Assembly (NCBI GenBank): GCA_017305715.1
Contig: JAFKKG010000030.1
Coordinates: forward strand, 67,728-128,513
Direction of reading: 5' to 3'
Source of the DNA: Hyphomicrobiales bacterium
Lineage (GTDB): Bacteria; Pseudomonadota; Alphaproteobacteria; Rhizobiales; Xanthobacteraceae
DNA: 60,786 nucleotides
Shown here piece by piece: positions 27,181 to 50,181 of this stretch (positions are counted from its first letter, which is position 1; the number at the start of each line of letters is the position of its first letter). The notes under the pieces were generated by a model, which was given only the letters and a program-made list of their open reading frames with translations, did no database searches and was not told the DNA's origin. The position numbers and the translations under genes are program-made.

Positions 27181-27216
27181 TGCTTGTAAATACAAAAATG
27201 GTTTGCTAGTGTACCA
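27181..27216. promoter_or_regulatory. Composite promoter region: TTGTAAATACAA palindrome and MarR-type half-site
   Basis: TTGTA-AA-TACAA (27184-27195) is a perfect dyad sharing TGCTTGTAAA with 25520-25529. Directly beyond it TGGTTT-GCTAGT-GTACCA (27199-27216) has the conserved right half of the region C dyad. This gap of 154 bases precedes the binding-protein gene at 27261 and could receive both regulators. Confidence 0.45.
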
Positions 27217-27260
27217 TTTGAATTGAGATCCGCCAAGCGGGCAGAAACGGGGAGGGAAGC

Positions 27261-28478
27261 ATGATCCGGAAGTTTGGGTTGGCGATTGCGGTTGCCGTGA
27301 TGGCCGTTGCAACGGCCGGCGATCTATCGGCCGCCGAGAAAAAATACGGACCGGGGGTCACCGACACCGAGATCAAGCTCGGCCAGACGGTCCCCTATAG
27401 CGGGCCGGCATCGGCGTTTTCGAGCTACGGCCGCGTGATGACTGGCTACTTCAAGATGATCAACGAAGCCGGCGGGATCAACGGCCGCAAGGTCAATTTG
27501 ATCTCGCTCGACAATGCCTTCAGTCCACCGAAGGCGATCGAGCAGACCCGGAAACTGGTCGAGGATGACGGCGTGCTGGCCGATGTCGGTACCGTCGGCA
27601 CCACGCCCAATGTCGCGATCCAGAAATATCTGAACGGCGCGAAGGTGCCGCACGTCTTCGTCTCTGCCGGGGGCCGGCGTTTCGCCGACCCGCAGAACTT
27701 CCCCTGGACCGTGCCGATGTATCCGGGCTTCGAAATGGAAGGGAAAACCTTCGGGCAGTACATCCTGAAGCACAAGCCGGCCGCCAAGGTCGGCGTGCTC
27801 TATCAGAACGACGACTATGGCAAGGACTTCCTGACCGGGCTGAAGGCCGCACTCGGGGACAAGGCGAAAATCGTGGCCGAAGTCGCCTATGAAATCACCG
27901 AGCCGACCATCGACTCGCAGATCGTCCGGCTGAAGGATTCCGGTGCTGACACGCTACTGTATTTCTCGACGCCGAAATTCACCGCGCAAGGGCTGCGCAA
28001 GGTGAAGGAGACGGGCTGGACGCCGCTGCAATTCCTCGCCAGCCCGACCAATTCGGTCAAGACGGTGCTGGAGCCGGCCGGTTTCGATAACGCACAGGGC
28101 ATCATCACCACGCAATTCACCAAGCAGGCCGGCGACCCGGCCTGGGCCAGCGACCCCGAAGTGACGGAATATGTGGAATTCATGAAGAAGTGGGTGCCGA
28201 ACGACAACCCCGGCGATTTCGTCGCCCTCTCGGGCTACATCAACGTTCAGGCCATTGCCCAGGCGCTCGCAAAGTGCGGCGACGACCTGACGCGGGAAAG
28301 TCTCCTCAAGCAGGCCACCAGCATGAAGGGCGCGCGCTTCAAGATGATGCTGCCGGGCGTTCAGCTCAACACCACGCCGCAGGACTATACGCCCTATCAG
28401 TCGTTGCGCATGGCGAAGTTCGAGGGGGCGTCGTGGAAGCTGATCGACGAAGCCGCAACGTCAGCATCGGCAAAGTAG
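27261..28478 (+). CDS. Orphan Liv-type substrate-binding protein (Peripla_BP_6)
   Basis: This periplasmic receptor of 405 residues has a signal peptide of about 24 residues (ending LSAAEKK) and family text TEIKLGQTVPYSGPASAF and INEAGGINGRKV. No Liv permease or ATPase genes lie next to it, so it must use transport machinery encoded elsewhere, possibly the importer at 9852-14235. It is closely related to the receptor at 31737-32954. A GGGGAGGG site precedes the ATG. Confidence 0.92.
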   Translation: MIRKFGLAIAVAVMAVATAGDLSAAEKKYGPGVTDTEIKLGQTVPYSGPASAFSSYGRVMTGYFKMINEAGGINGRKVNLISLDNAFSPPKAIEQTRKLVEDDGVLADVGTVGTTPNVAIQKYLNGAKVPHVFVSAGGRRFADPQNFPWTVPMYPGFEMEGKTFGQYILKHKPAAKVGVLYQNDDYGKDFLTGLKAALGDKAKIVAEVAYEITEPTIDSQIVRLKDSGADTLLYFSTPKFTAQGLRKVKETGWTPLQFLASPTNSVKTVLEPAGFDNAQGIITTQFTKQAGDPAWASDPEVTEYVEFMKKWVPNDNPGDFVALSGYINVQAIAQALAKCGDDLTRESLLKQATSMKGARFKMMLPGVQLNTTPQDYTPYQSLRMAKFEGASWKLIDEAATSASAK

Positions 28479-28518
28479 CGGCAATTCACTTGGGATGGCG
28501 GTCGGCAGGTCCCGGCCG

Positions 28519-29529
28519 TCACCCGATGCGGATCAGTCGCTTGCCGGTATTCTCGCCACGATAGAGCGTGGCGATTGCGCCCGGTGCATGCTCGATACCT
28601 TCGAGAATGTCTTCGGAATAGCATAGCCGTCCCTCGCGCAGCCACTGGGCCAGTCGCGCGATGGCCTCCTCGAACCGGGGCGCGTAGTCGAAGATGACGA
28701 AGCCCTGCATACGGGCGCGCTTGACCAGCAAATGACGCTCGGCGCGGGGGCCGCTCGGCCAGGGATTCCAGCTCGAGACCGAAGCGGTTCCACAGATCAC
28801 CACGCGCGCGCCGACGGCGAGATGGCGAAGGACCACGTCGCTGATGGCGCCGCCGGTGTTGTCGAAATAGAGGTCGATGCCTTTGGGGCAGGCCGCCACA
28901 AGGGCCGCCTCGATATCCCCGCTCTTGTAGTCGATCGCCGCGTCATAGCCGAACTGCTCGCGGCATTGCGCGACCTTTGCTGGTCCGCCGGCAATGCCGA
29001 CCGTCCGGCACCCGGCGATCTTGGCGATCTGCCCAACGGCGGAGCCCACCGCGCCAGCCGCGGTCGAGACGACGACCGTATCGCCGGGGCGCGGCTGGCC
29101 GACGTCCAGTAGGCCGAAATAGGCCGTCACGCCGTTGATGCCGGTCACGCCGAGCGACAGCGAAAGGGGCAGGTCGTCTTCGCGGACCTTTCTCGTGACC
29201 GCACCGGGGCCAACGACGGCGAATTCCTGCCACCCGAACATGCCCATCACCCTGTCGCCCGGTTTGAAGTCCGGATGCGTCGACTGCAGCACCTCGCCGG
29301 CGGCGAACGAGCGCATTACGTCGCCGATACGCACCGGCTCCGAATAATTGGCGACACTGCTCACCCAGCCACGCATCGCAGGCTCGACCGAGAGATAGAT
29401 ATTTTGCACCAGGATCTGCCCGTCCCGCAGATCGGGAACGTCCGATACGATGATCTCGAAATTGTCGGCCTGAGGAATATCGGCGGGGCGGGATTTCAGG
29501 ATGACCTGACGGTTGCGGTTGTTCTTCAT
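28519..29529 (-). CDS. NADP-dependent medium-chain reductase (PTGR/CurA-like MDR family)
   Basis: This zinc-free MDR protein of 336 residues reduces activated C=C bonds such as those of enones or enoyl-CoA-like compounds. Evidence is the opening QVILKSRPADIPQ-type text, the internal GVTGINGVTAYFGLL and VVVSTAAGAVGSAVGQIAK segment (cofactor loop AAGAVG), and the absence of zinc-binding cysteines. The ATG at 29529 follows AGGAG. It is divergent from the Bug-type binding protein across a regulon dyad. Confidence 0.9.
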   Translation of the reverse strand: MKNNRNRQVILKSRPADIPQADNFEIIVSDVPDLRDGQILVQNIYLSVEPAMRGWVSSVANYSEPVRIGDVMRSFAAGEVLQSTHPDFKPGDRVMGMFGWQEFAVVGPGAVTRKVREDDLPLSLSLGVTGINGVTAYFGLLDVGQPRPGDTVVVSTAAGAVGSAVGQIAKIAGCRTVGIAGGPAKVAQCREQFGYDAAIDYKSGDIEAALVAACPKGIDLYFDNTGGAISDVVLRHLAVGARVVICGTASVSSWNPWPSGPRAERHLLVKRARMQGFVIFDYAPRFEEAIARLAQWLREGRLCYSEDILEGIEHAPGAIATLYRGENTGKRLIRIG

Positions 29530-29625
29530 GGCCAACGGCTCCTGTTGGGCGGGTACGCGGTGCGCGCGAAGCGATGGACGGACCGGGACCGGATCCACCG
29601 ATCCACTTGCATTGGTCACCAAAGA

Positions 29626-29643
29626 TAGTACGTATGTGTACGA
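29626..29643. promoter_or_regulatory. Region C regulon dyad (TAGTAC-N6-GTACGA)
   Basis: TAGTAC (29626-29631), six bases, GTACGA (29638-29643): 11 of 12 arm positions fit the consensus TAGTAC-N6-GTACTA. It lies between the divergent reductase (29529) and Bug receptor (29732) genes. Confidence 0.65.
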
Positions 29644-29731
29644 TATCGGGCAAGGCCATTATCGGGACCATGACGCCTGAGGCCGATCCGGGAAGGTGAG
29701 GCCGCCCGATAGCCAAGGAGGGGAGACCGGA

Positions 29732-30703
29732 GTGAGGACCAATTTTGCGAGGGAGGTCGCCGCCGTCCTGTTTCTCCTGGCGGCTTGCTGTCCGGCGGGG
29801 TCTGCGGAACCTTATCCTTCGCAGCGCATCACCCTGATCGTGCCATTTCCGCCCGGCAGCGCTACCGACGGCGTGACGCGGCATCTGGCCGAAAGCATTC
29901 GTGCCGCGATCAACGCCACCATCGTGGTCGAGAACAAGCCGGGCGCGGACGGCAATCTTGCCGCACTCGCAGTGCTGAAAGCGGAGCCCGACGGTTACAC
30001 CGCCTTTGTGACCACGAATTCGACGCAAGCCGCGAACATCAGCCTGTTCAATTCGCTGCCCTACGATCCCAAGGCGGATTTCGCGCCGGTCGCAGGAATC
30101 ATGACGATACCGATGATGCTGACGGTGAGGTCGGACTTTCCGGCCAGGACCGTTGCGGAATTCGTCGCGCTGGCAAAGCAGCGCGAAAAAGCCCTGTCAT
30201 TCGGCAGCGGCAACACATCGAGCAGGGGCGCGGCCGAACTGTTCAGATATCGCCAGGCAATCGAGATGCAGCACGTGCCCTATCGCGGCATGCCGCAGGC
30301 TTTGACGGACGTATTGGCCGGGCAGATCGATTGCGTCTTCGCGGATACTTCGAGCGCCCAGGGGCTGCTTCAGGACGGCAAGCTGCGGGCGCTGGCGGTA
30401 ACGAGTGCGAAGAGAGTCGAGACGATGCCGGATGTTCCGACCATCGCGGAAAGCGGATTGCCCGGTTATGAATTGAGCGCCTGGGTCGGGGTCTACGTGC
30501 GCGCAAAAACCCCACCCGAAATTATCGCGAGACTCAACGCTCTGATCACCAGCTTCGTCAACAATGCCGAAACGAAGAAATATCTGGCGACGATCGGTGC
30601 TGCACCGTTCCCCTCGACGCCGCAGGAACTTGCAGCGTTCCAGGACGCCGACAGCAGGCGCTGGGCCGAGATCGTCGCAACCGCCAAGATCGAAAAGAAG
30701 TGA
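29732..30703 (+). CDS. Orphan Bug-family periplasmic receptor (tripartite tricarboxylate transporter type)
   Basis: This secreted solute-binding protein of 323 residues has a signal peptide (LFLLAACCPAGSA) and the Bug signatures ITLIVPFPPGSATDG, VVENKPGADGN and PVAGIMTIPMMLTV. Such receptors bind carboxylates for TctAB-type carriers, but no TctA/TctB genes are near. The GTG at 29732 is preceded by AAGGAGG. The context suggests that it captures a substrate acid or product acid of the surrounding CoA pathway. Confidence 0.9.
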   Translation: MRTNFAREVAAVLFLLAACCPAGSAEPYPSQRITLIVPFPPGSATDGVTRHLAESIRAAINATIVVENKPGADGNLAALAVLKAEPDGYTAFVTTNSTQAANISLFNSLPYDPKADFAPVAGIMTIPMMLTVRSDFPARTVAEFVALAKQREKALSFGSGNTSSRGAAELFRYRQAIEMQHVPYRGMPQALTDVLAGQIDCVFADTSSAQGLLQDGKLRALAVTSAKRVETMPDVPTIAESGLPGYELSAWVGVYVRAKTPPEIIARLNALITSFVNNAETKKYLATIGAAPFPSTPQELAAFQDADSRRWAEIVATAKIEKK

Positions 30704-30710
30704 GCGGCGG

Positions 30711-31565
30711 TTAGCTTGCGAAGACCGCGCTGCCGCGGTCGAGGACGACGAGATCGCGCTCAACGACGCGCGAACGGAAGCGAATTTCGCTGCCCGCGCC
30801 GAAAAATTCTGTCTTGATCGTTTCACCGGGGTAGACTGGGCGGCTGAAGCGGACGGACAAGGATTTAAGCCGCTCGGGCGCCCCTTTGGCGAATGTGGTC
30901 AATAGCGCCCGCGTGGCGACGCCGAAGGTGCACAGGCCGTGGAGGATCGGTGCTTCAAAGCCGGCCTTGGCGGCCGCTTTGGGATCGGCATGAATCGGAT
31001 TGTAATCGCCGCTGAGCCGGTAGATCAGCGCGCTTTGCGCCAGCGTCGCGATCTCACAGGTCGAGGAGGGCGCTTGCTCGGGGACCGGTTGGGGAGCTTC
31101 GGGAACCTCGCCGAAACTGCCGCAGCCGCCATCGCCGCGCATGAACAGCACGCTGCGGACGGTCGCGAGCAACTGGCCCGACGATGTGTCACGCAACTTC
31201 TTGACTTGATGCAGGATGGCGCCTTTTCCCGCGCCCTTGTCTTCGACCGCGACGATTTCATAGCTACCGACGACGGTACCCTCCGGCGGCAGCGGGTTGT
31301 GTATTTCAAAACTCTGTTCGCCATGCAGCATCTTCAACCAGTCGATACCGAAATCCGGGTTCCTCACCCACATGCCGGGGTGGGCGAGAACGCAGCACAT
31401 CGACGGCACCGCGCGAAGGTCATCTTCGTAGACGAAGGCCAACTGGGTGGGATCGGTCGGTTCCGAGCCGTAGCCCAACCCCAGCGCGTAAAGCATCGAG
31501 TCCTTTCGGGAATAGGTGTGGGTGACGGCTTCGAAACGAAAATTGCTGATAGCGTCGAGATTCAA
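30711..31565 (-). CDS. MaoC-type 2-enoyl-CoA hydratase, double hot-dog
   Basis: This protein of 284 residues has an N-terminal degenerate hot-dog half and a C-terminal half with the hydratase-2 motif: Asp187 and His192 in YRLSGDYNPIHADP, followed by ILHGLCTFG. It should hydrate an enoyl-CoA to the 3R-hydroxyacyl-CoA, as in the peroxisomal multifunctional enzyme 2. The start is a TTG at 31565 after GAGAGGGG. It is divergent from the receptor gene at 31737, with a well-conserved regulon dyad between them, and converges on the Bug gene. Confidence 0.9.
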   Translation of the reverse strand: MNLDAISNFRFEAVTHTYSRKDSMLYALGLGYGSEPTDPTQLAFVYEDDLRAVPSMCCVLAHPGMWVRNPDFGIDWLKMLHGEQSFEIHNPLPPEGTVVGSYEIVAVEDKGAGKGAILHQVKKLRDTSSGQLLATVRSVLFMRGDGGCGSFGEVPEAPQPVPEQAPSSTCEIATLAQSALIYRLSGDYNPIHADPKAAAKAGFEAPILHGLCTFGVATRALLTTFAKGAPERLKSLSVRFSRPVYPGETIKTEFFGAGSEIRFRSRVVERDLVVLDRGSAVFAS

Positions 31566-31634
31566 GGGCGACCCCTCTCATTTTTTCTGCACGGCTTTTC
31601 CGCAAGGCTTCCCGGCAATTTGACATGTCGCATA

Positions 31635-31652
31635 TAGTGCGCTTGTGTACTA
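31635..31652. promoter_or_regulatory. Region C regulon dyad (TAGTGC-N6-GTACTA)
   Basis: TAGTGC-GCTTGT-GTACTA, 11 of 12 arm positions match the consensus. It is located between the divergent MaoC and receptor genes. The spacer GCTTGT is identical to that of the site before marR (34512-34529). Confidence 0.7.
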
Positions 31653-31736
31653 TCTAAATGCAAGGGCCGGCAAACGAGGCGGCCCGCGGATACAGACGGC
31701 AAACCGACCGCGACATTGTAATGACGGGAGGAGATC

Positions 31737-32954
31737 ATGATCCTTGCGAGAGGCTTCGCCATCGCGGCAACGTTCCTTGCTCTCGCCGGTCAGGCGCCCG
31801 CCGGCGAAAAAAAATATGGCCCTGGCGTCACCGACAGCGAAATCAAGATCGGCAACACCTCTCCCTATAGCGGTCCGGCATCGGCTTTCAGCATGGTGGC
31901 GAAGGCGAGCGAAGCCTATGTGCGAAAGATCAACGCCGAGGGCGGCATCAATGGCCGCAAGATCAAATTTATTTCCTACGACGACGCCTACTCGCCGCCG
32001 AAGACCGTCGAACAGACGCGCAAGCTGGTTGAAAGCGATGAAGTCCTTTTCGTCTTCAACGCGCTGGGGACGGCGACGAATTCCGCGGTCCAGAAATATC
32101 TGAACGCCAAGAAGGTGCCGCAGCTGTTCGTCTCGAGCGGGGCGGCGAAGTGGAACGATCCGGTGAATTTTCCATGGACCATGGGATTCACCCCGAGTTA
32201 CCAGAACGAAGGCCGCACCTATGCAAAATTTCTTCTGAAGGAGAAGCCGGGAGCGAAGATAGCCATCTTGTTCCAGAACGACGATTTCGGAAAGGATTAC
32301 CTCAAGGGCATGAAGGAAGGCCTGGGTGACAAGGCCGCATCGATGATTGTCGCCGAGGAAGCCTTCGACGTTCTGGAGCCGAGTATCGATTCCCACATCG
32401 TTAAGCTGAAGGCGACCGGCGCCGACGTGCTGTTCGATGTGGCGACACCCAAATTTGCCGCACAGGCGATCAAGAAAGTAGCCGAACTCGGCTGGAAGCC
32501 GCTCCATCTGTTGAGCTACGTCTCGGCCTCGATCGGCAGCGTGATCAAGCCGGCCGGGTTCGAGAACGCGCAAGGCATCATCTCGGCGGCCTATTTCAAG
32601 GATCCCAACGATCCCAAATGGAAGGATGATCGCGGCCTCAAGGAGCTCAATGCCTTCCTCGACAAGTATTATCCCGAGGCCAATCGCAGCGATACCCTGA
32701 TCGTCAACGGATACAATACGGCCGAGTTGCTGGTCCACCTCCTCAAGCAATGCGGCGACGATCTCACGCGCGAGAATGTCATGAAACAGGCGGCCAGCCT
32801 GAGCAATGTCGAGCTCGGCATGTTGTTGCCCGGGATCAGGGCAAGTACCTCGCCAACTGATTTCGCGCCGGTCAAACAATGGCAGTTGATGCGCTTCGAG
32901 GGCGCCAACTGGCAATTGTTTGGCGACGTCATCAATGGGGAAACAAAGGACTAG
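31737..32954 (+). CDS. Second orphan Liv-type substrate-binding protein
   Basis: This receptor of 405 residues is the same length as the one at 27261-28478 and similar throughout (KKYGPGVTDSEIKIG, PYSGPASAFS, GGINGRK). The signal peptide ends near residue 22 (APAGEKK). It has no cognate permease nearby. Having two related but not identical receptors in one regulon suggests two related substrates, for example ring acids differing in one substituent. GGGAGGAG precedes the ATG, and the SDR gene follows 8 bases downstream. Confidence 0.92.
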   Translation: MILARGFAIAATFLALAGQAPAGEKKYGPGVTDSEIKIGNTSPYSGPASAFSMVAKASEAYVRKINAEGGINGRKIKFISYDDAYSPPKTVEQTRKLVESDEVLFVFNALGTATNSAVQKYLNAKKVPQLFVSSGAAKWNDPVNFPWTMGFTPSYQNEGRTYAKFLLKEKPGAKIAILFQNDDFGKDYLKGMKEGLGDKAASMIVAEEAFDVLEPSIDSHIVKLKATGADVLFDVATPKFAAQAIKKVAELGWKPLHLLSYVSASIGSVIKPAGFENAQGIISAAYFKDPNDPKWKDDRGLKELNAFLDKYYPEANRSDTLIVNGYNTAELLVHLLKQCGDDLTRENVMKQAASLSNVELGMLLPGIRASTSPTDFAPVKQWQLMRFEGANWQLFGDVINGETKD

Positions 32955-32962
32955 GAGTGCAA

Positions 32963-33865
32963 ATGGGACACCTGTGTGCCGGACGAGTGGCCATTGTGAC
33001 CGGGGCGGGCCGCGGCCTCGGCCGCGAATACGCGCTGATGCTGGCCGAGCAGGGGGCGAAGGTCGTCGTCAACGACCTCGGTGCTAGCGCGGCCGGCGAA
33101 GGCGCCGATCTGACGCCGGCCCAGTCCGTGGTCGAAGCGATCAAGAGCGCCGGTGGCGAAGCCATCGTGAACGGCAACGATGTCAGTGAGTGGGCCGGTG
33201 CGAAGGCGCTGGTCGACGAAGCTGTCGCGACATTCGGGCGCCTCGACGTGCTGATCAACAATGCCGGCATCCTGCGCGACCGCATGATGGTCAATATGAC
33301 CGAGCAGGAATGGGACAGTGTCATCAAGGTGCATCTGAAGGGAACGTTCGCGCCGTCGCATCATGCGGCACAATATTGGCGCCAGGAGGCCAAGCGGCGC
33401 GGCGCGCCGGTGAGCGCGCGGCTGATCAATACGTCTTCCGCCTCCGGCCTGTTCGGCAATGTCGGCCAGACCAATTACGGGGCAGCAAAGGCCGGCATTG
33501 CCGCCTTCACCATCATCAGCGCCACCGAGCTCAGGCAGTATGGAATAACCGTCAATGCCATTGCGCCGCGCGCGCAGACCCGGATGACGGAAGGATTGCG
33601 GGAGCGCACCGAGGAAGAGATCAAGCGGCGCAATCCGCGCTGGGTCGCGCCGATCGTCGTCTGGCTGGCCAGCGAGGAATCCCGCGACGTCACCGGCCGC
33701 GTGTTCGAAGCCGGCGATGGCATTCTCAAAGTGGCCGAAGGCTGGCATGCCGGGCCGGGGATCGAGCCGGTCGAGGATCCCAGCGAGTTGGGTCCAAAAA
33801 TTGCCGAGCTGATGAAGCAGGCCCGCCCCAATGCCGATATCTGGGGACGGGACATCGTGTCATAG
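32963..33865 (+). CDS. SDR, 3-hydroxyacyl-CoA dehydrogenase of HSD17B4 type
   Basis: This protein of 300 residues has TGAGRGLG near residues 13-20, NNAG at 99-102 and an intact Tyr172-x3-Lys176 (YGAAKAG). The opening and the VVNDLG segment are those of the dehydrogenase unit of peroxisomal multifunctional enzyme 2, which acts on 3R-hydroxyacyl-CoA. That stereochemistry fits the MaoC hydratase encoded divergently nearby, so the two may give consecutive steps. The ATG at 32963 follows AGGAG. Confidence 0.9.
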   Translation: MGHLCAGRVAIVTGAGRGLGREYALMLAEQGAKVVVNDLGASAAGEGADLTPAQSVVEAIKSAGGEAIVNGNDVSEWAGAKALVDEAVATFGRLDVLINNAGILRDRMMVNMTEQEWDSVIKVHLKGTFAPSHHAAQYWRQEAKRRGAPVSARLINTSSASGLFGNVGQTNYGAAKAGIAAFTIISATELRQYGITVNAIAPRAQTRMTEGLRERTEEEIKRRNPRWVAPIVVWLASEESRDVTGRVFEAGDGILKVAEGWHAGPGIEPVEDPSELGPKIAELMKQARPNADIWGRDIVS

Positions 33866-33928: not shown

Positions 33929-34447
33929 CTACGCCGCCTTCCTGCTCTTGCGCGGTTTCGTCTTCTTGCTGACCTCTTCTTCGCTCTCGCTCGGCAGGGC
34001 GTTTCCGTCGGACATCGCCAGCAGATTGTGCTTCATCGCCAGCAATGCGTCCGACGCCGCCTCCAATGCCTCCCGGTCAATGCCGTGAGTCAACTGGGCA
34101 TTGAACTTGTCGGTTTCCTTGCGGAGTTTCTCCAGAAATCCGCGCGCCTGCTTGGTGACAAAGACGCGCTTGACGCGGCGGTCGACCGGGTCTGCCTGCC
34201 GAAGCACGAAGCCGGAAGACTCCAGACGGTCGATCAGCGCGCCGACGCCAACCTTGCCGACATCGAGTTCATTGGCGAGCTGGGTTTGCGGCAGTCCGTC
34301 TTTCCGCGAAATGAACGCCAGCACCCACCATTGCGACCGCGTGATGCCGAGCGGGGCGAGAGCGCGGTCGAACATCATCCGGCGTAGCCGGGAAACGTCG
34401 TGGATGAGATAGCCTAGTCGGAGATCCCAATCGGGCCGGTCGACCAT
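33929..34447 (-). CDS. MarR-family regulator, probable BadR-like regulator of region C
   Basis: This protein of 172 residues has a MarR winged helix (recognition text GLPQTQLANELDVGKVGVGALIDRL and the wing DPVDRRVKRVFVTKQ) and a basic, lysine-rich tail (KKTKPRKSRKAA). It is the only regulator gene inside the 27-52 kb catabolic block, and a copy of the block's dyad lies 65 bases before its start. In Rhodopseudomonas palustris a MarR protein, BadR, controls badH and badI, whose homologues are in this block, so an equivalent role is inferred. GAGGAC precedes the ATG. Confidence 0.9.
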   Translation of the reverse strand: MVDRPDWDLRLGYLIHDVSRLRRMMFDRALAPLGITRSQWWVLAFISRKDGLPQTQLANELDVGKVGVGALIDRLESSGFVLRQADPVDRRVKRVFVTKQARGFLEKLRKETDKFNAQLTHGIDREALEAASDALLAMKHNLLAMSDGNALPSESEEEVSKKTKPRKSRKAA

Positions 34448-34511: not shown

Positions 34512-34529
34512 TCATACACAAGCGTATTT
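34512..34529. promoter_or_regulatory. Region C dyad upstream of marR (autoregulatory site)
   Basis: On the minus strand it reads AAATAC-GCTTGT-GTATGA, sharing the core CGCTTGTGTA with 31635-31652. ATACACAAGCGTAT (34514-34527) is itself a near-perfect palindrome. It lies between marR and the divergent SDR gene, as expected for a MarR autoregulator. Confidence 0.6.
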
Positions 34530-34672: not shown

Positions 34673-34690
34673 AAGTACAGTAGTGTATCA
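34673..34690. promoter_or_regulatory. Region C dyad before the SDR-crotonase operon
   Basis: AAGTAC-AGTAGT-GTATCA fits the arms at 9 of 12 positions. It lies 31 bases upstream of the ATG at 34722 in the 274-base divergent gap. Apart from this site and the one before marR, nothing else is seen in the gap. Confidence 0.55.
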
Positions 34691-34721
34691 ATTTGACTTC
34701 GGCGGCCAGGATCAGGCCGTG

Positions 34722-36452: not shown

Positions 36453-36454
36453 CC

Positions 36455-42197: not shown

Positions 42198-42209
42198 CGA
42201 GGCCTCCCG

Positions 42210-43139: not shown

Positions 43140-43149
43140 GGTGTTTCCT

Positions 43150-43944
43150 CTACGTGAATTTGTGGAAGTCCGGCGTTCGCTTCTCGTTGAAGGCGGCGAC
43201 GCCTTCCTTCGATTCTGCGGTATCGTAGAACAGTTTCACCGCATGCAAAGCGAGGTTGCTGATGCCGCGAATGTTGTCGCTGTCGGCGTTGAAGGAGCGC
43301 TTCGCCAGCGCGATCGCGGTCGGCGAGCGCTGTGCGAGCTTATCGGTCCAGTCCTTGACGGCGGCATCGAGTTCGGCGGCCGGAACGACCTTGTTGACGA
43401 GGCCCATTTCGCGCGCCTGTTCGGCGGTGTAGCGATCGTTGATGAACCAGATCTCGCGCGCCTTCTTGTCGCCGACATGGCGGGCCAGCAAGGCGGTGCC
43501 CCAGCCGGCGTCGACGGAGCCGACTTTGGGCCCGACCTGTCCGAATTGCGCGGTGTCGGCGGCGATCGTCAGGTCGCACAGCGTTGCCAGCACGTTTCCG
43601 CCGCCGATCGCAAAGCCGTTGACGCGGGCGATGACGGGCTTGGGAACATCGCGGATCAGGCCCTGCAATTCGTCGATCGGCAGGCCAACGACGCCGCGGC
43701 CGTCATATTGTCCCTCATGCGCGGACTGGTCGCCGCCGGTGCAGAACGCCTTGTCGCCGGCGCCCGTCAGCACGATGCTCGAGACGTTGCGGTCGTTGGC
43801 GGCAATCTGGAACGCCTGAATCAGTTCTTCAAGCGTCTGGCCGCGGAAGGCATTATAGACCTTGGGGCGGTTGATGATGATCCAGGCGGCACGGTCGCGG
43901 ACTTCGTAGATCACATCGGTGAATTTGCTCGGGTCGAACATCAT
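43150..43944 (-). CDS. badI: BadI-like 2-ketocyclohexanecarboxyl-CoA hydrolase (ring-cleaving crotonase)
   Basis: This protein of 264 residues belongs to the MenB/BadI branch. As far as I recall the Rhodopseudomonas sequence, it matches closely in AWIIINRP, CTGGDQSxHxGxYDGRG, VGLPxxEL, RDVPKPVIARV, GYAIGGGNVLAT and FGQVGPKxGSVD. BadI opens a beta-keto alicyclic ring CoA ester hydrolytically to pimelyl-CoA. The gene lies directly after a BadH-like dehydrogenase, the same order as in R. palustris, which supports the call. GAGGATG lies before ATG 43944 (second ATG at 43941). Confidence 0.82.
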   Translation of the reverse strand: MMFDPSKFTDVIYEVRDRAAWIIINRPKVYNAFRGQTLEELIQAFQIAANDRNVSSIVLTGAGDKAFCTGGDQSAHEGQYDGRGVVGLPIDELQGLIRDVPKPVIARVNGFAIGGGNVLATLCDLTIAADTAQFGQVGPKVGSVDAGWGTALLARHVGDKKAREIWFINDRYTAEQAREMGLVNKVVPAAELDAAVKDWTDKLAQRSPTAIALAKRSFNADSDNIRGISNLALHAVKLFYDTAESKEGVAAFNEKRTPDFHKFT

Positions 43945-43960
43945 ATCATCCTCACATCTG

Positions 43961-44719
43961 CTAGATCATGTTCATGCCGCCGGAGACCGAGATGGCCTGT
44001 CCGGTGATGAATTTTCCATCGTCTGACGCCAGCATGGCGACGATCCCGGCGTAGTCGTCGGGCTCGCCCATGCGCTTCAAGGGAATGCCGCGAACCATCG
44101 CGTCCTTCCATTTCACGGCCTGTTCGCCTTCACCCAGCACCGCCGCCATCATCGGCGTGTTGGTAGGGCCCGGACAGACCGCATTCAGCAGCACGTTCTT
44201 GCGCGCCAGTTCACGGGCGATCGATTTGGTGAAGGAGATCAAGCCGCCCTTGCAGGCCGAGTAGACCGCCTCGTCGCTGGTACCGACGCGGGCGGCGTCG
44301 GAGGCGATATTGATGATGCGGCCGCCGCCGTGCTCGACCATCAGCGGCGCGATGGCGTGGTGGGTGTTGAGCGGACCATAGAGATTGATGCGGATGATCT
44401 TGTCCCAGAGTTCCTTGTCGGTCTTCAGGAACGGCATCGGCTTGTCCCAGCCGGCGTTATTGACCAGTGCCCAGATCGGGCCGAGGTCGGCCTCGACCTG
44501 TGCGACCGCGCGATCGACCGAGGTGCGGTCGCCGACATCGACGGTGTAGGTGGTGATCGCCGATTTCGGCGCCAGTTTCGCCGTCTCATGTCCGGCGTCG
44601 GGATTGATGTCGAAAATCGCGACCTTGCAGCCTTCTTCGGCGAGCCGAAGGGTGATGGCGCGCCCGATGCCCTGGCCGCCGCCGGTAACGATCGCGACCT
44701 TGCCTGATAAGCCTTTCAA
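43961..44719 (-). CDS. badH: BadH-like 2-hydroxycyclohexanecarboxyl-CoA dehydrogenase (SDR)
   Basis: This classical SDR of 252 residues has TGGGQGIG at 12-19, NNAGWD at 87-92 and the triad Ser140, Tyr153, Lys157 (YSACKGG). The NNAGWD, IASDAARVG and FITGQ-SVSGG stretches match BadH as I remember it. It would oxidise the ring hydroxyl to the ketone that BadI cleaves. The start is TTG at 44719 behind GGGGAG. It follows the acyl-CoA dehydrogenase gene by 77 bases and precedes badI by 16. Confidence 0.82.
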   Translation of the reverse strand: MKGLSGKVAIVTGGGQGIGRAITLRLAEEGCKVAIFDINPDAGHETAKLAPKSAITTYTVDVGDRTSVDRAVAQVEADLGPIWALVNNAGWDKPMPFLKTDKELWDKIIRINLYGPLNTHHAIAPLMVEHGGGRIINIASDAARVGTSDEAVYSACKGGLISFTKSIARELARKNVLLNAVCPGPTNTPMMAAVLGEGEQAVKWKDAMVRGIPLKRMGEPDDYAGIVAMLASDDGKFITGQAISVSGGMNMI

Positions 44720-44796
44720 AATTCACTCCCCTGTTTTGCGGCGCATTGGCCGTTGCTGTGTTTGGGCCGCCGGCCCTGGCCGAGCGGCGGGCGGGC

Positions 44797-45975
44797 TCAG
44801 CCGCTCTTGGTGAGCGCAAAACCACATTGCGCGAACATCTGGCGGGCGATGATGGTTTTCATGATCTCGATCGATCCGCCCGCGATCTTGACGATCCTGG
44901 CGTCGATATAGGCGCGCGCGATCGGATACTCCGTCATATAGCCCCAGCCACCGAACAATTGCAGGCATTCGTCGACCGCCTCGCAATGCAGTTCGGAGGT
45001 GAACATCTTGGCCATCGCGGCGTCCACCGGATCGAGCTTGCCTTCCATGAACAGCGAGATGCATCGGTCGGTAAAGACGCGGGCGACCGTGGCCTTGGTC
45101 TTGAGATCGGCGAGCTTGAACTGGGTGTTCTGGAAGTTGGCGAGCTTTTGGCCGAACACGCTGCGGTCCGACGTATATTCGACGGTCCAGTCCAGCACGG
45201 TTTCGGTGACGGTGGCGGAGCGGATCGCCTGGGCGAGCCGTTCCTGCGACAGCTTCGTCATCATCAGCGCAAAACCCTTGCCTTCCTGCCCCAGCATATT
45301 GGTGGCGGGAACGCGGATATTCTCGAAGAACAGTTCGGACGTATCCTGCGCCTTCATGCCGATTTTTTCGAGGTTTCGTCCGCGCTGGAAGCCGGGCCGG
45401 TTGCTCTCGACGATAAACAGCGTCACGCCCTTGGCGCCGGCGCTGCCGTCGGTCTTGGTCGCCAGCACGACGAAATCGCAAAGCTGGCCATTCGAGATGA
45501 AAACTTTCTGGCCGTTGATGACGAAATCATCGCCATCGCGCACCGCGCGGGTCCTGATCGCCTTGAGGTCGCTGCCGGCATGCGGCTCGGTCATGCCGAG
45601 CGAGCCGATCGCTTCACCCGACACCATCTTCGGCAGCCACTGCCGCTTCTGTGCTTCGGTTCCAAACGAAAGCAGATAGGTCGCGACCAGATCGGTGTGA
45701 ATCAGAAAGCCCGGGCCGCTGGCGCCGGAGCGCCATAATTCCTCGAACACGACGACGTCGAACAGATAGTCGAGGCCCATGCCGCCATACTCTTCGGGCA
45801 CGGTACAGCAGAGCAGCCCTTCGGCGCCGGCCTTGAGCCACAGGTCCCGCGGCACGATGCCGTCTTTTTCCCACTGTGCGTGAAACGGCACGATCTCGCG
45901 ATCGACGAAGCGCCGGACCGATTCCCGGAAAATATGATGTTCCTCGCGGAAAATGGTGCGCTCGATCATCGACAT
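44797..45975 (-). CDS. Acyl-CoA dehydrogenase, first gene of the badHI-like operon
   Basis: This protein of 392 residues has SLGMTEPHAGSDLKAIRT and GQKVFISNGQLCD motifs. A glutamate (TVTETVLDW) occupies the position used by long-chain type dehydrogenases, counted back from the RSVFGQ motif, so it looks catalytically complete, unlike its paralogue at 41052. It likely makes the cyclohexene-type CoA ester. The ATG at 45975 was chosen (GTG 45981 and ATG 45969 are alternatives); a regulon dyad begins only 14 bases upstream. Confidence 0.9.
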   Translation of the reverse strand: MSMIERTIFREEHHIFRESVRRFVDREIVPFHAQWEKDGIVPRDLWLKAGAEGLLCCTVPEEYGGMGLDYLFDVVVFEELWRSGASGPGFLIHTDLVATYLLSFGTEAQKRQWLPKMVSGEAIGSLGMTEPHAGSDLKAIRTRAVRDGDDFVINGQKVFISNGQLCDFVVLATKTDGSAGAKGVTLFIVESNRPGFQRGRNLEKIGMKAQDTSELFFENIRVPATNMLGQEGKGFALMMTKLSQERLAQAIRSATVTETVLDWTVEYTSDRSVFGQKLANFQNTQFKLADLKTKATVARVFTDRCISLFMEGKLDPVDAAMAKMFTSELHCEAVDECLQLFGGWGYMTEYPIARAYIDARIVKIAGGSIEIMKTIIARQMFAQCGFALTKSG

Positions 45976-45988: not shown

Positions 45989-46006
45989 TAGTTAGGTAGT
46001 GTACTA
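45989..46006. promoter_or_regulatory. Region C dyad in front of the badHI-like operon (TAGTTA-N6-GTACTA)
   Basis: TAGTTA-GGTAGT-GTACTA: 10 of 12 arm bases match. It lies only 14 bases from the dehydrogenase start codon, so a bound regulator would cover the transcript start or the ribosome site. The opposite gene has its own copy at 46150. Confidence 0.65.
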
Positions 46007-46149: not shown

Positions 46150-46167
46150 TAGTACACATCTATACGA
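46150..46167. promoter_or_regulatory. Region C dyad in front of the crotonase-like operon (TAGTAC-N6-ATACGA)
   Basis: TAGTAC-ACATCT-ATACGA: perfect left arm and four of six right-arm bases. It lies 40 bases upstream of the ATG at 46207. The remaining 225-base divergent gap shows no gene. Confidence 0.6.
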
Positions 46168-46206: not shown

Positions 46207-47505
46207 ATGAACGCGTTGGGAGAGTTGCAGCAATTCCGGGCCGAACGCAGCCAAAACAATGTCCTGCATCTTGTTTTCGACATGCCCGGCCGCCCGATGA
46301 ACGTGTTCTCGAACGCCGCGATTGCCGAACTCGCGATCTTCAGCCGCTGGCTCCGCGACAGCGATGTAAAGGGCGTGGTCATCCGTTCGGGAAAGCCGTC
46401 GGCCTTCTGTGCCGGGGCCGATCTCGCCGAACTCGGAGCGGCCTATGACATGATCATGGCGGCACCCGCCGGGACGCGCGACCGTGTGGCATTCGATCAC
46501 TTCTTTCCTCTCAGTCAGGCGTTGCGTGGAATCGAAACCGCGGGCAAGCCGGTTGCGGCCGCGATCGCCGGCCTGGCGCTGGGCGGCGGCGGCGAACTGG
46601 CGCTGGCGACCCATTATCGGGTCATGGTCGATGATCCCAAGGTTGCATTTGGCCTGCCGGAGTCGCTGGTCGGGCTGTTACCGGGAGGCGGGGGAACCCA
46701 GCGGCTGCCGCGCCTGACCGGAATCAAAAAAGCATTTCCGATCCTGCTGGAAGGCGCGCGTCTGTCCGGGCAGGCCGCTGTTGACGCCGGCGTGATCAAT
46801 CAACTGGTGCCGGCCGGCGAAGAGGTGGCGGTGGCGGAACGATGGGTGCTGTCGCATCCCTCAGTGTCTCAGCCCTGGGATCGCGCTGGATGGCGGCCGG
46901 CTGATGTCGATGATGCTGCGTCAATCGTCGCGCGGAAGCGCGAAAGCGTGCTGGCCGAAACCCTCGGTCACTATCCGGCGCCGCTTGCCATTCTCGACTG
47001 CGTCGGCACAGGACTGCCGCAACCGTTTGATGACGCGATCCGCAGCGAGATGCAGATATTTTCAAAACTGATCCAGCGGCGCGAGCCGCGCAACATGATC
47101 AGGACGCTGTTTCTCGGCCGGCTCGATCATGATCGGCTGCGCAAGGCGGGAGGCGTTCCGGCGCCCGTCGAACAGGCGGTGGCGGCGGTATCCGAGGCGC
47201 TACAGGCCGGGGCTGATGCAACGCTCGTGAATGCGCTCGCGCGCGCCGGCTTTCAGGGGCCGGGCAAGGTGCCGGCTTTCGATGGCTTTGTTGCGCAGTC
47301 CGCGTTCTGGCTGGAGGCAGAACCCGTCACCGACGGCAAACATGCGTTGCGCGAGCGACTGGCGCGAGCATACGCCATGGCGGACCAATGGCGGACCGGC
47401 TTTTCCGAGGATCAGCGCCGTGCCGCGGATTATCTACTGGTCACCAAACATGGCTTTCCCGCCTATATGGCAGGGGCCTTCTCTTCCGCCCAGCCGGGCG
47501 CCTGA
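46207..47505 (+). CDS. Crotonase-domain protein with long C-terminal extension, FadB/FadJ-like without dehydrogenase domain
   Basis: Residues 1-180 are an enoyl-CoA hydratase domain with GLALGGGGELALATHYRV (oxyanion hole) and FGLPESLVGLLPGGGGTQRLPRLTG (catalytic Glu region). Residues 180-432 resemble the linker and C-terminal helical parts of the fatty-acid oxidation complex, ending in a HGFPAYMAGAF stretch like the VEGYGFPAY end of FadB. No Rossmann GxGxxG is present, so the NAD-binding dehydrogenase part is missing. At 432 residues it lies between hydratase and full FadB lengths. The ATG at 46207 follows GAGAGGGAG. Confidence 0.82.
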   Translation: MNALGELQQFRAERSQNNVLHLVFDMPGRPMNVFSNAAIAELAIFSRWLRDSDVKGVVIRSGKPSAFCAGADLAELGAAYDMIMAAPAGTRDRVAFDHFFPLSQALRGIETAGKPVAAAIAGLALGGGGELALATHYRVMVDDPKVAFGLPESLVGLLPGGGGTQRLPRLTGIKKAFPILLEGARLSGQAAVDAGVINQLVPAGEEVAVAERWVLSHPSVSQPWDRAGWRPADVDDAASIVARKRESVLAETLGHYPAPLAILDCVGTGLPQPFDDAIRSEMQIFSKLIQRREPRNMIRTLFLGRLDHDRLRKAGGVPAPVEQAVAAVSEALQAGADATLVNALARAGFQGPGKVPAFDGFVAQSAFWLEAEPVTDGKHALRERLARAYAMADQWRTGFSEDQRRAADYLLVTKHGFPAYMAGAFSSAQPGA

Positions 47506-47564
47506 ATGCCGGCTTCGAAACGCCCGCCATTGTGGTGCGCGCAACTCCAATCGAGAGAACAGCA

Positions 47565-48755
47565 GTGTCAAAACCCCTGACCGGCATCCGCGTCCTCGAC
47601 CTGTCGAAAGTTCTGGCGGGTCCGCTGTGCGCCCAATATCTCGGCGATCTCGGCGCCGACATCATCAAGGTGGAGGCCGTCGGCCAGGGCGACGAAACGC
47701 GCGGCTGGCCGCCATTTCCGGCGCCGGGCATGGGAACCGTCTTTCTCAGTGCCAACCGGAACAAGCGCAGCATCGCCGTCGACATGAAGTCGGAAAAGGG
47801 GCGCGAGATCGTTCATGCGCTGGCAAAATCGGCCGATGTCGCCATTGAAAGTTTCGGAACCGGCGTGGCCGAGCGCCTCGGCATCGATGCGCCGACGCTG
47901 CGCGCCCTGAACGACCGCCTGATCCATTGCAGCATCTCGGGCTTCGGCCGCTCGGGGCCGCTGAAAAACTCGCCGGGTTATGACGTCATCCTGCAGGCGT
48001 TTTGCGGCGTCATGTCGATGACCGGCGACGAGGATGGCGGCTATATCCGCAGCCCGATCTCGCCGATCGACCAGATGACAGGCGTGCATGCCTTCAGCGG
48101 CATTCTGGCGCTGCTGTATGAGCGGGAAAAGACCGGCAAGGGCGGCGAGATCCAGGTTTCGCTGTTCGAAACCGCGGTCGGCCTGCTGGGTTACAATTTG
48201 CAGACTTTCTGGGAACGCGGCGTGCAGCCGCCGAAATGCGGCTCCAGCCATGAATCGCTCTGTCCCTATCAGGCTTTCGAGGCGGCGGATGGCCCGATCA
48301 TGATCGGGGTCGCCAACGACAATCTCTGGCGCAAATTCTGCGCGGTCACCGGCCTGGACGCGATCGTCGATGATGTCAGGTTCAGGACCAATGCGGACCG
48401 CGTCGCGCACCGCAAGGAAACCCTCGGTCATGTCCAGGCCGCGCTGGCGCAAAATTCCGTCGCGCACTGGAATGAGTTGCTGACCGGCGTCGGCGTGCCC
48501 TGCGCGCCGATCAATTCGATCGCGCAATTGCTCGATCACCCGCACACCGCGGCCAGCGGCATCATCGTCGACTACGAACATCGGACGGCGGGCAAGCTGA
48601 AGGGCGTCGGTCACCCCGTTCGGATCAACGGGGCGGAACGACGCGCGGGCAGGCCGCCGCCGGTGCTGGGACAGCACACCGACGACGTGCTCGGTGAAAT
48701 CGGTCTTTCGCGCGAGACGATCGGTGAACTACGGCAAGCCCGGATCATCGGGTGA
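47565..48755 (+). CDS. CaiB/BaiF-family CoA transferase (family III)
   Basis: This protein of 396 residues transfers CoA between acids through an aspartyl anhydride. It begins with the signature LTGIRVLDLSKVLAGPLCAQYLGDLGADIIKVE, and the PGYDVILQAF motif near residue 137 holds the catalytic Asp. The GTG at 47565 starts the conserved sequence. Upstream in-frame residues overlap the preceding gene and look artificial. In this operon it may activate the substrate or recycle CoA from a product without ATP. Confidence 0.92.
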   Translation: MSKPLTGIRVLDLSKVLAGPLCAQYLGDLGADIIKVEAVGQGDETRGWPPFPAPGMGTVFLSANRNKRSIAVDMKSEKGREIVHALAKSADVAIESFGTGVAERLGIDAPTLRALNDRLIHCSISGFGRSGPLKNSPGYDVILQAFCGVMSMTGDEDGGYIRSPISPIDQMTGVHAFSGILALLYEREKTGKGGEIQVSLFETAVGLLGYNLQTFWERGVQPPKCGSSHESLCPYQAFEAADGPIMIGVANDNLWRKFCAVTGLDAIVDDVRFRTNADRVAHRKETLGHVQAALAQNSVAHWNELLTGVGVPCAPINSIAQLLDHPHTAASGIIVDYEHRTAGKLKGVGHPVRINGAERRAGRPPPVLGQHTDDVLGEIGLSRETIGELRQARIIG

Positions 48756-48786
48756 GATTTTGCATCGCTTAACGGGAGTTGGATAG

Positions 48787-49968
48787 ATGGGGCAATCGAC
48801 GGACACGGCGCTGGCCGCGCTGAAAATCGGCAGCCGCGTCGCTTACGAGCGTCTGGCGCGGCCAAAGGCGCGCCGGTTCGATGACGTCCCCTGTACGCCT
48901 TACGCCGTCACGGCGGAATGGCTGACGGCGGTCCTCTGCGGCAAGGTTCCGGGAGCGGTCGTTACGCAGGTCGAGGTCAAGGCCGCGAGCGCGGGTACGC
49001 ACGAGCGCCATCAGCTGAAAGTCTCTTACAACGAGGAGGGCCGGCGCGCCGGCCTGCCGGTCTCGATCTTCACCAAGTCGCTGCCGAGCATCGTCACCCG
49101 CATGATCGGCGGCTTCAACGGCACGGCGCGCGTGGAGGGCAGCTTCTTTACGCAGATCCGGCCTCAGCTCGAGATCGAGGCGCCGCTGTGCTATCATTCC
49201 GCCTATGATCGGCGGACGTTTGCCGCGATCCATCTGCTGGAAGATCTGGTCGCCACCAAGTCAGCGACGTTCTGCAATCACAAGACCGATGTCACGCGCG
49301 CGATGGCGGACGACATGATCGATCTGTTGGCAGCGTTGCACGGCCGCTTCTACGGCGATCCGACGCTGGCCGAACGCTATCGCTGGCTCGCCAGCTATTC
49401 CCGATGGTTCACCATCGGCGCGGCAAAAATGGGAACGGAGTACTACACAAGGAAAGCGTTTGACGCTGCGGCTCATGTTATTCCCACGGCGGTGCTTGCG
49501 CGCCGCGACGATGTCTGGCCGGTGACGATGCGCGCACTTGCGCTGCATGACAGCGAGCCGCAGGGGCTCATTCATTCCGACGTGCATATCGGCAACTGGT
49601 ACCGCACCGGCGCCGGCCAGATGGGATTGTGCGACTGGCAGTGTCTTTCGCGCGGGCACTGGTCGCGCGATTTCGCCTACGCCGTGACGGCGTCGCTGAC
49701 GCCGGACAATCGCCGGAACTGGGAGCGTGAGCTGTTGGCCCGTTATATCGAACGGTTCGCGGAGAAGACCGGCGTCAAGCCCGATTTCGACCTCAGCTTC
49801 CAGCGCTACCGGCAGCAGATCGTGCATGCGCTGGCGATGTGGACGATCACGCTGTGCCACTCGCCGCTGCTGCCGAACATGCAGCCCGAGGATACGACGT
49901 TGACGATGATCGGGCGGATGACGACGGCGATGGCCGATCTGGATGCGCTCGACAGCTTCCGGGATTGA
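48787..49968 (+). CDS. Aminoglycoside-phosphotransferase-fold kinase in the CoA cluster
   Basis: This protein of 393 residues has the kinase catalytic loop LIHSDVHIGNWY (HxDxxxxN, near residue 260) and the Mg-binding LCDWQ a dozen residues later, as in APH and ecdysteroid-kinase-like families. Such kinases are known in hydroxyacyl-CoA metabolism (LvaA for 4-hydroxyvaleryl-CoA; the kinase domain of ACAD10/11). With acyl-CoA dehydrogenases and CoA ligase around it, phosphorylation of a hydroxyacyl-CoA is a better guess than antibiotic resistance. GGGAG precedes the ATG. Confidence 0.85.
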   Translation: MGQSTDTALAALKIGSRVAYERLARPKARRFDDVPCTPYAVTAEWLTAVLCGKVPGAVVTQVEVKAASAGTHERHQLKVSYNEEGRRAGLPVSIFTKSLPSIVTRMIGGFNGTARVEGSFFTQIRPQLEIEAPLCYHSAYDRRTFAAIHLLEDLVATKSATFCNHKTDVTRAMADDMIDLLAALHGRFYGDPTLAERYRWLASYSRWFTIGAAKMGTEYYTRKAFDAAAHVIPTAVLARRDDVWPVTMRALALHDSEPQGLIHSDVHIGNWYRTGAGQMGLCDWQCLSRGHWSRDFAYAVTASLTPDNRRNWERELLARYIERFAEKTGVKPDFDLSFQRYRQQIVHALAMWTITLCHSPLLPNMQPEDTTLTMIGRMTTAMADLDALDSFRD

Positions 49969-50163
49969 CCGACCGGTTCGGGGGCTGCGGCAGGATGTAG
50001 CAACTTTCGCGCGGGTCCGGACGGTAGCCCCCGGGTTTGAACACCAGTGTATTATATTCATTCACTTTTCTGCTTTGGACTCCGCGGGCCACTCTGACCG
50101 ACAGTGAACTGCTTAGGGCAAGGATATGGCGCCGAACTTTGCGGTTGCGATTTACGGCAAAAT

Positions 50164-50181
50164 TAGTACACTAGCGAACAA
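50164..50181. promoter_or_regulatory. Region C dyad before the CoA ligase gene (TAGTAC-N6-GAACAA)
   Basis: The left arm TAGTAC is perfect; the right arm keeps three bases. It lies 42 bases before ATG 50224. A weaker ACACCAGTGTATTA palindrome is at 50041-50054 in the same 255-base gap, which holds no gene. Confidence 0.55.

Follow-up and report, generated by a model that had tools for sequence, protein, structure and literature searches.

The locus described here raises the question of what governs an uncharacterized catabolic cluster whose genes surround a single MarR-type gene, and whether a palindrome repeated between its transcription units is the operator of that MarR protein. The whole stretch of DNA analyzed (the window) was 60,786 nucleotides in length. 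On the operon boundaries adopted here, the cluster comprised 23 genes including marR, close to the roughly 20 genes that the original prediction had placed under one MarR/BadR-like regulator. Its genes are as follows.

27261 to 33865: six genes (family search), encoding an ABC binding protein, MDR reductase, TctC binding protein, MaoC hydratase, ABC binding protein and SDR
33929 to 34447, minus strand: MarR-family regulator of 172 aa, proposed repressor (Pfam, AF2 model, Foldseek)
34683 to 40923: seven genes, encoding an SDR, two enoyl-CoA hydratases, an SDR, a RipB-like hydratase, a CitE/RipC-like lyase and an acyl-CoA dehydrogenase
41052 to 45975, minus strand: operon encoding an acyl-CoA dehydrogenase, badH-like and badI-like products, a beta-keto acid cleavage enzyme and an acyl-CoA dehydrogenase
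46207 to 51882, plus strand: enoyl-CoA hydratase, CaiB CoA-transferase, APH-like kinase and AliA-like CoA ligase

The regulator was assigned to the MarR family by its winged helix-turn-helix domain and a fold match to MarR/SlyA. It matched the MarR_2/MarR pair of Pfam models (PF12802, 50.4 bits against a cut-off of 27; PF01047, 45.9 bits against 24.6), and its AF2 model (mean pLDDT 83) contained the helices and wing strands, with a predicted recognition helix at residues 65-77. The best Foldseek match was 3q5f, SlyA with DNA. A family search of all 23 cluster genes returned this protein as the only regulator. MarR proteins usually act as dimers and bind a palindrome of approximately 16-20 bp near their own promoter.

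Ten 18-bp dyads were located in the window.

Dyad 1, 27199 to 27216, plus strand: upstream of the ABC substrate-binding gene at 27261-28478; the same gene in L016 is also preceded by a dyad
Dyad 2, 29626 to 29643, plus strand: divergent gap 29530-29731, between the reductase and the TctC-type binding protein
Dyad 3, 31635 to 31652, plus strand: divergent gap 31566-31736, between the MaoC hydratase and the ABC binding protein plus SDR
Dyad 4, 34512 to 34529, minus strand: marR-proximal in the marR/SDR divergent gap; relatives keep a dyad in their marR gap
Dyad 5, 34673 to 34690, plus strand: SDR-proximal in the same gap as dyad 4; conserved in relatives
Dyad 6, 37414 to 37431, plus strand: located in gap 37259-37483; contains a predicted -10 hexamer (37415-37420)
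Dyad 7, 45989 to 46006, plus strand: just upstream of the five-gene badH/badI-like operon; overlapped by a predicted minus-strand -10 at 46008-46003
Dyad 8, 46150 to 46167, minus strand: upstream of the enoyl-CoA hydratase/CaiB operon; 46150 is also the end of a predicted -10
Dyad 9, 50037 to 50054, plus strand: found by consensus search and matrix; the weakest
Dyad 10, 50164 to 50181, minus strand: upstream of the AliA-like CoA ligase

A search of the window with TAGTAC-N6-GTACTA, allowing up to three mismatches, returned nine matches where 1.40 were expected, and none of 100 shuffles reached nine. Seven of the nine sites originally listed were recovered in this way, and those at 34512 (21.6 bits with the window matrix, 18.2 bits when left out of it) and 27199 (21.5 and 17.8 bits) were missed and needed the matrix. 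This matrix was built from the ten window sites. The repeated dyad was borne out, and a tenth copy, at 50037, was added. This last was the weakest (20.0 bits, 14.7 when left out), and under a matrix from divergent loci it tied at 14.1 bits with a match inside a gene at 27947, which was weak with the window matrix (11.7 bits). A consensus match at 58685 was rejected as chance; it was not among the window-matrix matches of 7.5 bits or more. The right half-site, GTGTAY-NA, was almost invariant and the left half looser; we read the consensus in relatives, in IUPAC letters, as TMGTACRC-TA-GYGTACKA.

Chance palindromes, or a resemblance to promoter boxes in AT-rich gaps, might produce such a series, and TACTAT/TATAGT within the dyads does resemble -10 boxes. 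The shuffles speak against this, as do column-permuted matrices (mean of 0.3 matches and maximum of 3 in 200, versus 10 for the real matrix), a result that is partly circular since the later matrices, like the model R1 used below, include sites from relatives picked with the window matrix. Given also the reversed-pattern genome controls and the conservation of dyad letters in relatives set out below, we regard this explanation as barely credible.

All ten window dyads lay outside gene bodies and no more than 300 bp from a start codon; that at 34673 spans GTG 34683, where the SDR gene could start at the earliest, and is upstream only if translation begins instead at the in-frame ATG at 34722. 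In a survey of gaps of at least 40 bp, partly circular for the same reason, a dyad was present in each of the seven upstream gaps that measure 154 bp or more between 27.1 and 50.2 kb and in none of the four short gaps (59-77 bp) there. None of the 14 non-convergent gaps elsewhere in the window, which varied in length, held a dyad, and no dyad was found in any of the 6 convergent gaps. The dioxygenase-operon gap at 25485-25580 was without a dyad in the window; some relatives do have one. The original prediction had held that nearly every promoter gap from 27.2 to 50.2 kb contains a dyad, that none lies inside the operons inspected and that the lone MarR gene sits in the middle with its own copy; all of this stood, with a single weak genic match (27947) and two copies in the divergent gap of marR. 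Dyads 4 and 5 are 161 bp apart, as are dyads 7 and 8; this was treated as coincidence, as spacings differ in other loci.

The source genome (7.45 Mb) was scanned with a refined pattern that, here as in the family and genus scans, was written after the sites had been seen; it gave 11 matches (eight in the cluster, two inside genes and one before a second catabolic locus) versus three for a reversed-pattern control. The genic pair, on contigs C25 and C41 (L093, L094), was rejected, with matrix scores that were low or below the listing threshold; equally good matches inside genes, which the original prediction had named as evidence against itself, were in this way not encountered among the 11. 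A stricter pattern found three matches, all in the cluster, against two for its control, too few sites for use alone. The original consensus with up to two mismatches was found at 13 places, five of them in the cluster, a count that proves little because its reversed control differs in composition (289 matches per strand). Model R1, searched up to E 10, matched the whole genome only twice, within the cluster and on contig C49; this search was blunt, and patterns with reversed-pattern controls were therefore relied upon. The C49 dyad lies upstream of an SDR gene (E 1e-80) that was present in only two of 80 genus genomes, the source and G191; both carry the MarR, and the dyad occurs in G191 with differing letters. 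From these sequences we propose that the regulon includes one or more operons in trans.

Of 34 named-genome loci with the orthologous MarR gene (L014-L047), from Bradyrhizobium to Rhodobacteraceae, 32 had dyads around it. The window matrix gave 124 matches of at least 15 bits in these 34 loci, with approximately one expected from shuffles; by our gene caller, 118 were upstream of genes, one was intergenic without a near start and five were genic. No match of 15 bits or more was found at L044 and L047, and none of 12 bits or more at L111 and L128. For MarRs of approximately 43-55% identity, intergenic dyads of at least 12 bits were present in five of six stretches. Across 80 genomes of the genus, the refined pattern averaged 8.25 matches (range 3-11) in the 12 with the MarR and 1.63 (0-5) in the 68 without it, versus 4.58 and 3.85, respectively, for the reversed control. 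One of 149 family genomes, G105, had six matches on six contigs without the MarR. The palindromes in the window MarR's own gap were likewise conserved: marR gap dyads were present in 12 of 13 genus loci and most named loci, and in 14 Bradyrhizobium-type loci the dyad columns of this gap were 97% conserved, versus 71% outside.

Palindromes were also searched for without a motif. In 12 divergent loci this recovered TACGC-N2-GCGTA (four copies versus 0.04 expected) and GTAC-N6-GTAC (six versus 0.47), none genic, and in the Bradyrhizobium set GTACAC-N2-GTGTAC (ten copies, one genic). The dyad was not singled out in the window alone, and in the divergent loci CGTA-N3, CGTAC-N1 and CTTGC-N13 palindromes outranked it.

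One site stands before several transcription units, is rare elsewhere and is conserved with the regulator, as a regulon should be. The MarR and the cluster are co-inherited, so co-occurrence alone cannot exclude another co-inherited regulator, for instance a TetR-type protein encoded elsewhere, with the MarR as a bystander; the association of MarR and dyad is one of genome and neighborhood. Against this rival stand the position of the MarR as sole regulator among the 23 genes, the dyads in the marR gap and their persistence down to MarRs of 43-55% identity. Furthermore, three paralogous MarR loci (L049 and L050 of the source genome, and L106) carry, at the start of the MarR gene, a palindrome that is related to the dyad but not the same. 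These paralogs belong to the same family and have a palindrome of the same size, but it is AAGC-TW-GCTT-like and their recognition helix differs from that of the window MarR. We hold a separate regulator to be improbable.

We consider it very probable that the MarR encoded at 33929-34447 has the dyads as its operators; it would block the cluster and be released by a pathway compound. A MarR dimer would sit on each 18-bp palindrome, mostly 20-105 bp or so upstream of the start codon and over the predicted -10 at some promoters, and would block transcription of marR itself and of approximately 22 genes for catabolism and uptake. Release would be by a compound of the pathway, most likely derived from an alicyclic or aromatic substrate as its acyl-CoA or free acid, and the same protein would control at least one trans operon, on contig C49.

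Activation, or activation together with repression, by the dyad-bound MarR is an unlikely but not negligible alternative. The nearest solved relatives are SlyA proteins, and some MarR/SlyA proteins activate. On the other side, three of the promoters have a dyad on or directly beside the predicted -10 box, the usual place of a repressor, although the promoter predictions were near chance (one found versus 2.6 expected; four versus 1.1).

The BadH-, BadI- and AliA-like enzymes, together with a MarR in both systems, might suggest an ordinary bad-ali cyclohexane carboxylate regulon with BadR-ortholog operators. The published BadR operator is CAATacATTG or CAAN4TTG, and BadR of Aromatoleum sp. CIB is a repressor released by cyclohexanecarboxyl-CoA (PMC9795900). 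Five MarRs encoded beside true BadI were 21-25% identical to the window MarR over 132-159 aligned residues, and those of nine such loci in related genomes scored 22-32 bits against it. GKVxxGxL in the recognition helix, retained in most dyad-linked MarRs, differs in BadR. The dyad was found in none of 27 BadI-family, 7 paralogous-MarR and 8 other source-genome loci (approximately 3-4 kb or less each). CAATNNATTG, the published operator, was present at four of six BadI-linked MarR loci examined and absent from the seven window gaps, and CAAN4TTG was in 0 of 7. The badH-like and badI-like genes follow dyad 7 and the AliA-like gene dyad 10, and all three products fell below their family cut-offs (321.9 versus 431.2 bits, 417.6 versus 467.6 and 655.8 versus 792.3, respectively); the beta-keto acid cleavage enzyme exceeded that of the KCE model NF053538 (543.7 versus 430). 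On the 21-25% identity and the absence from seven gaps, BadR orthology with a CAATNNATTG operator was rejected, and this explanation is highly improbable; the BadR-likeness originally suggested was not supported as regards descent.

As far as the available text goes, the BadR regulon of Rhodopseudomonas palustris and Aromatoleum sp. CIB likewise places badH/badI/aliA-type genes under a MarR-family protein, control that is predicted here. The operators differ (CAATNNATTG versus TMGTACRC-TA-GYGTACKA), and BadR is described there as acting at one or two divergent promoters, whereas the window dyads occupy seven gaps plus the trans site. The best reading of these comparisons is that the window MarR would work like BadR, yet belong to a separate lineage with its own operator. 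The SlyA/MarR structures 3q5f and 5h3r, which include solved DNA-bound forms, were its best sequence and fold matches, at approximately 25-26% identity, but their targets differ. CouR (Rhodococcus jostii/R. palustris) has the MarR fold in common with it, but scored only approximately 37 bits and serves a different pathway; CouR is a MarR repressor released by acyl-CoA and is a model for such release (PMC4737184).

Among the literature matches listed there was no account of this cluster's MarR regulator, and the motif letters were without a match. It is more probable than not that these MarRs form a subfamily not described before, which has an operator class of its own and controls a large multi-locus regulon (seven gaps and a trans operon). 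The regulon would serve a ring-opening pathway of the BadHI type, of patchy occurrence in Bradyrhizobium, Mesorhizobium and Rhodobacteraceae, and the subfamily would be a counterpart of BadR without being its ortholog. This would provide an operator, a regulator and a gene list for the cluster. The MarR-dyad pair could be used to find further pathway members in trans, as for contig C49, and may serve as a sensor once the inducer is known. If the proposal is true, co-evolution of protein and operator could be read from the related MarR paralogs, whose palindromes are shifted. The comparison itself suggests control of badHI-type genes by no fewer than two separate MarR lineages whose operators differ.

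Ten 18-bp dyads (palindromes of the TAGTAC-N6-GTACTA type) in the window are real and conserved, and are very probably the operators to which the product of the following MarR gene is predicted to bind.

33929 to 34447, minus strand: gene for a MarR-family regulator
27199, 29626, 31635, 34512, 34673, 37414, 45989, 46150, 50037 and 50164: starts of dyads 1 to 10

The original prediction had placed a repeated dyad at nine of these sites, which both matrix scores and gap placement bear out; 50037 was added as a tenth. Nine matches to the originally proposed consensus (at most 3 mismatches) were found in the 60.8-kb window, versus 1.40 expected. Using a matrix built from the ten aligned copies, the dyads score 20.0-25.5 bits (14.7-23.4 bits when each is left out in turn) and the best non-dyad place in the window scores 11.7 bits. 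The right half-site (GTGTAY-NA) is almost invariant and the left is looser. By gene caller, all ten lie outside gene bodies; the first start codon that an SDR gene could use (GTG 34683) falls within the dyad at 34673, which would lie upstream if the in-frame ATG at 34722 is the start. Gaps of 40 bp or more were surveyed. One or two dyads occur in all seven upstream gaps of at least 154 bp between 27.1 and 50.2 kb, and none in the four short gaps (59-77 bp) of that stretch, in 14 non-convergent gaps elsewhere in the window or in six convergent gaps. A weak dyad-like match at 27947-27964, within the first binding-protein gene, equals site 50037 under a matrix from divergent loci. Both pairs 34512/34673 and 45989/46150 are separated by 161 bp; spacings in relatives differ (e.g., 84 and 91 bp).

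Sites from relatives used for a profile (model R1) and for later matrices were chosen with the window matrix, so recovery of the ten sites by these models is partly circular: R1 matched only the ten window sites up to E 10 (four on both strands), and later matrices placed them at ranks 1 to 10. Less circular tests comprised shuffles, reversed patterns, column permutation, conservation of the marR gap and a motif-free palindrome count. Across 14 loci, dyad columns in the marR gap are 97% conserved versus 71% outside (p 6e-12). Motif-free counting of exact gapped palindromes in 12 more divergent loci (L034-L045) returned TACGC-N2-GCGTA and GTAC-N6-GTAC, each with 0 genic copies; CGTA-N3, CGTAC-N1 and CTTGC-N13 outrank both, and correcting for 91,392 tests would leave GTAC-N6-GTAC marginal. 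In a Bradyrhizobium set that is redundant by descent, GTACAC-N2-GTGTAC ranks second (10 intergenic, 1 genic). Within the window alone, where the copies are imperfect, this count did not single out the dyad.

Scanning named genomes with the MarR protein yielded 34 loci, around which a matrix from window sites only gave 124 matches of at least 15 bits (about 1 expected from shuffles). By gene caller, 118 are upstream of genes, 5 are genic, and 1 is intergenic with no start codon close by. At least one such dyad is present in 32 of the 34 loci, and none at 15 bits in L044 and L047. The latter is from a deltaproteobacterial MAG, where a MarR of 46% identity adjoins weakly BadH-like (34%) and BadI-like (32%) genes. 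MarRs of about 43-55% identity have neighbours of the same gene kinds, and intergenic dyads of at least 12 bits were found in five of six stretches around them (raw counts), with none in L111. Two copies of this MarR type occur in L038, L043, G191, G207, G049 and G113, lying ~7-8 kb apart within the L038 and L043 loci.

In 80 genomes of the genus (MarR presence at E 1e-30), pattern matches, in which perfect palindromes may count on both strands, average 8.25 in the 12 with MarR versus 1.63 in the 68 without (p 2e-8); the reversed pattern gave 4.58 versus 3.85 (p 0.17). Among 149 genomes of the family, the source genome has 11 matches and the next highest, G105, has 6 on six contigs and no MarR match at E 1e-25. 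Among the matches listed, many Bradyrhizobium genomes that lack this MarR contain TTGCACGTTTGTGTACAA (e.g., G024:C1:4523912 and G153:C1:5046132), a distinct conserved element that also fits the loose pattern.

No dyad of at least 15 bits was found in 27 BadI-family loci, seven own-genome loci of paralogous MarRs or eight other own-genome loci. Three of 30 BadI-family loci had been left out (L072 and L073, with an ortholog nearby in the genome, and L076, with a MarR of 45-49% identity). This negative is weak because control loci are ~3-4 kb long and L075, counted among the 27, comes from G113, where two MarRs (54% and 47% identity) lie on the contig that holds it. The control results slightly raise the probability of a reading in which a different, co-inherited regulator binds the dyads and MarR is a bystander, which we consider improbable. 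A lone MarR gene had been predicted for the cluster, and family searches of all 23 cluster genes confirmed MarR as the sole regulator. Binding by MarR is retained as very probable, with confidence slightly lowered because of the control results.

The cluster and an adjacent operon contain the following.

Uptake: two ABC-type and one TctC-type binding proteins
Redox: MDR reductase, three acyl-CoA dehydrogenases, SDRs
Hydratases: three enoyl-CoA hydratases, MaoC hydratase
Other enzymes: RipB/RipC-like, BadH-like, BadI-like, beta-keto acid cleavage enzyme
Remaining: CaiB transferase, APH-like kinase, AliA-like ligase
19689 to 26600: aromatic ring-hydroxylating dioxygenase genes (Rieske alpha and beta, ferredoxin reductase, SDR, glyoxalase/dioxygenase-like) and a divergent amidohydrolase

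The 23 genes including marR, in putative operons, agree with the roughly 20 first proposed to be under one regulator, a number that depends on operon structure read from sequence. BadH, BadI and AliA do not reach the cut-offs of their families, and the beta-keto acid cleavage enzyme exceeds that of NF053538. The cluster would most likely oxidise an alicyclic or aromatic acid, in the form of its CoA ester, and open the ring. No dyad was found in the window in the gap of the dioxygenase operon (25485-25580); in L020, L024, L026 and L033 a dyad does lie between this pair of genes.

The pattern TNGTANNNTWGTGTAYNA, written after sites had been seen, gave 11 matches with one mismatch in the 7.45-Mb source genome (reversed pattern, 3). 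Eight fall on window dyads, two of the ten being missed, and contig C49 holds one exact match. The other two lie within genes, which is not the scatter of equally good genic matches that would have spoken against the prediction. A search with the original consensus (two mismatches) found 13 places, 5 in the cluster, and offers no support because the reversed control gave 289 per strand.

C49:94494-94541 (L095:8495-8542): two dyads with a spacing of 30 bp, upstream of paired genes for an SDR and a substrate-binding protein

The exact C49 site scores 27.9 bits with the relatives' matrix and its weaker partner 16.2 bits. Both sit between a divergent AidB-type acyl-CoA dehydrogenase gene and the SDR gene, which is followed by the substrate-binding protein gene. 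This SDR type is present in two of 80 genus genomes (E 1e-80), both with MarR, and in G191 a differently lettered dyad (25.4 bits) lies upstream of it. Together these are good evidence for a trans member, and the C49 operon likely belongs to the regulon.

The window MarR protein shows a MarR domain clearly in a family search and a winged helix in its structure model; among solved structures, SlyA and MarR come closest. The regulator had been labelled BadR-like, which did not hold. Against this protein, all nine MarRs encoded beside BadI genes that pass the family cut-off reach 22-32 bits, and the five compared are 21-25% identical. The BadR operator is printed as CAATNNATTG (PMC9795900); it was found near MarR in four of six BadI-linked loci examined, and CAAN4TTG in none of the window gaps. 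These results rule out BadR as the identity of the window MarR.

Dyad centres are mostly ~20-105 bp upstream of start codons (gene-call coordinates). The distance is greater for 50037 (~178 bp) and towards the far side of gap 37259-37483 (~164 bp), and 34673 lies right at the earliest SDR start. Dyads 6, 7 and 8 each overlap or adjoin a predicted -10 hexamer, which fits repression by occlusion; the direction of control is only inferred because promoter predictions are close to chance. MarR would occupy dyads at promoters and a pathway metabolite would release it, as is reported for BadR (PMC9795900) and likewise for CouR.

Residues 65-77, the predicted recognition helix, form part of a GKVxxGxL motif that most dyad-linked MarRs share (GKG in L101); the two BadR-type proteins L056 and L057 have SRQNLAGL or SRQNLTGL. 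Three paralogous MarRs (L049, L050, L106) have kindred AAGC-TW-GCTT palindromes at their own starts. This is a lead that the operators may share an ancestor and have shifted in specificity, and that operator and recognition helix may have diverged.
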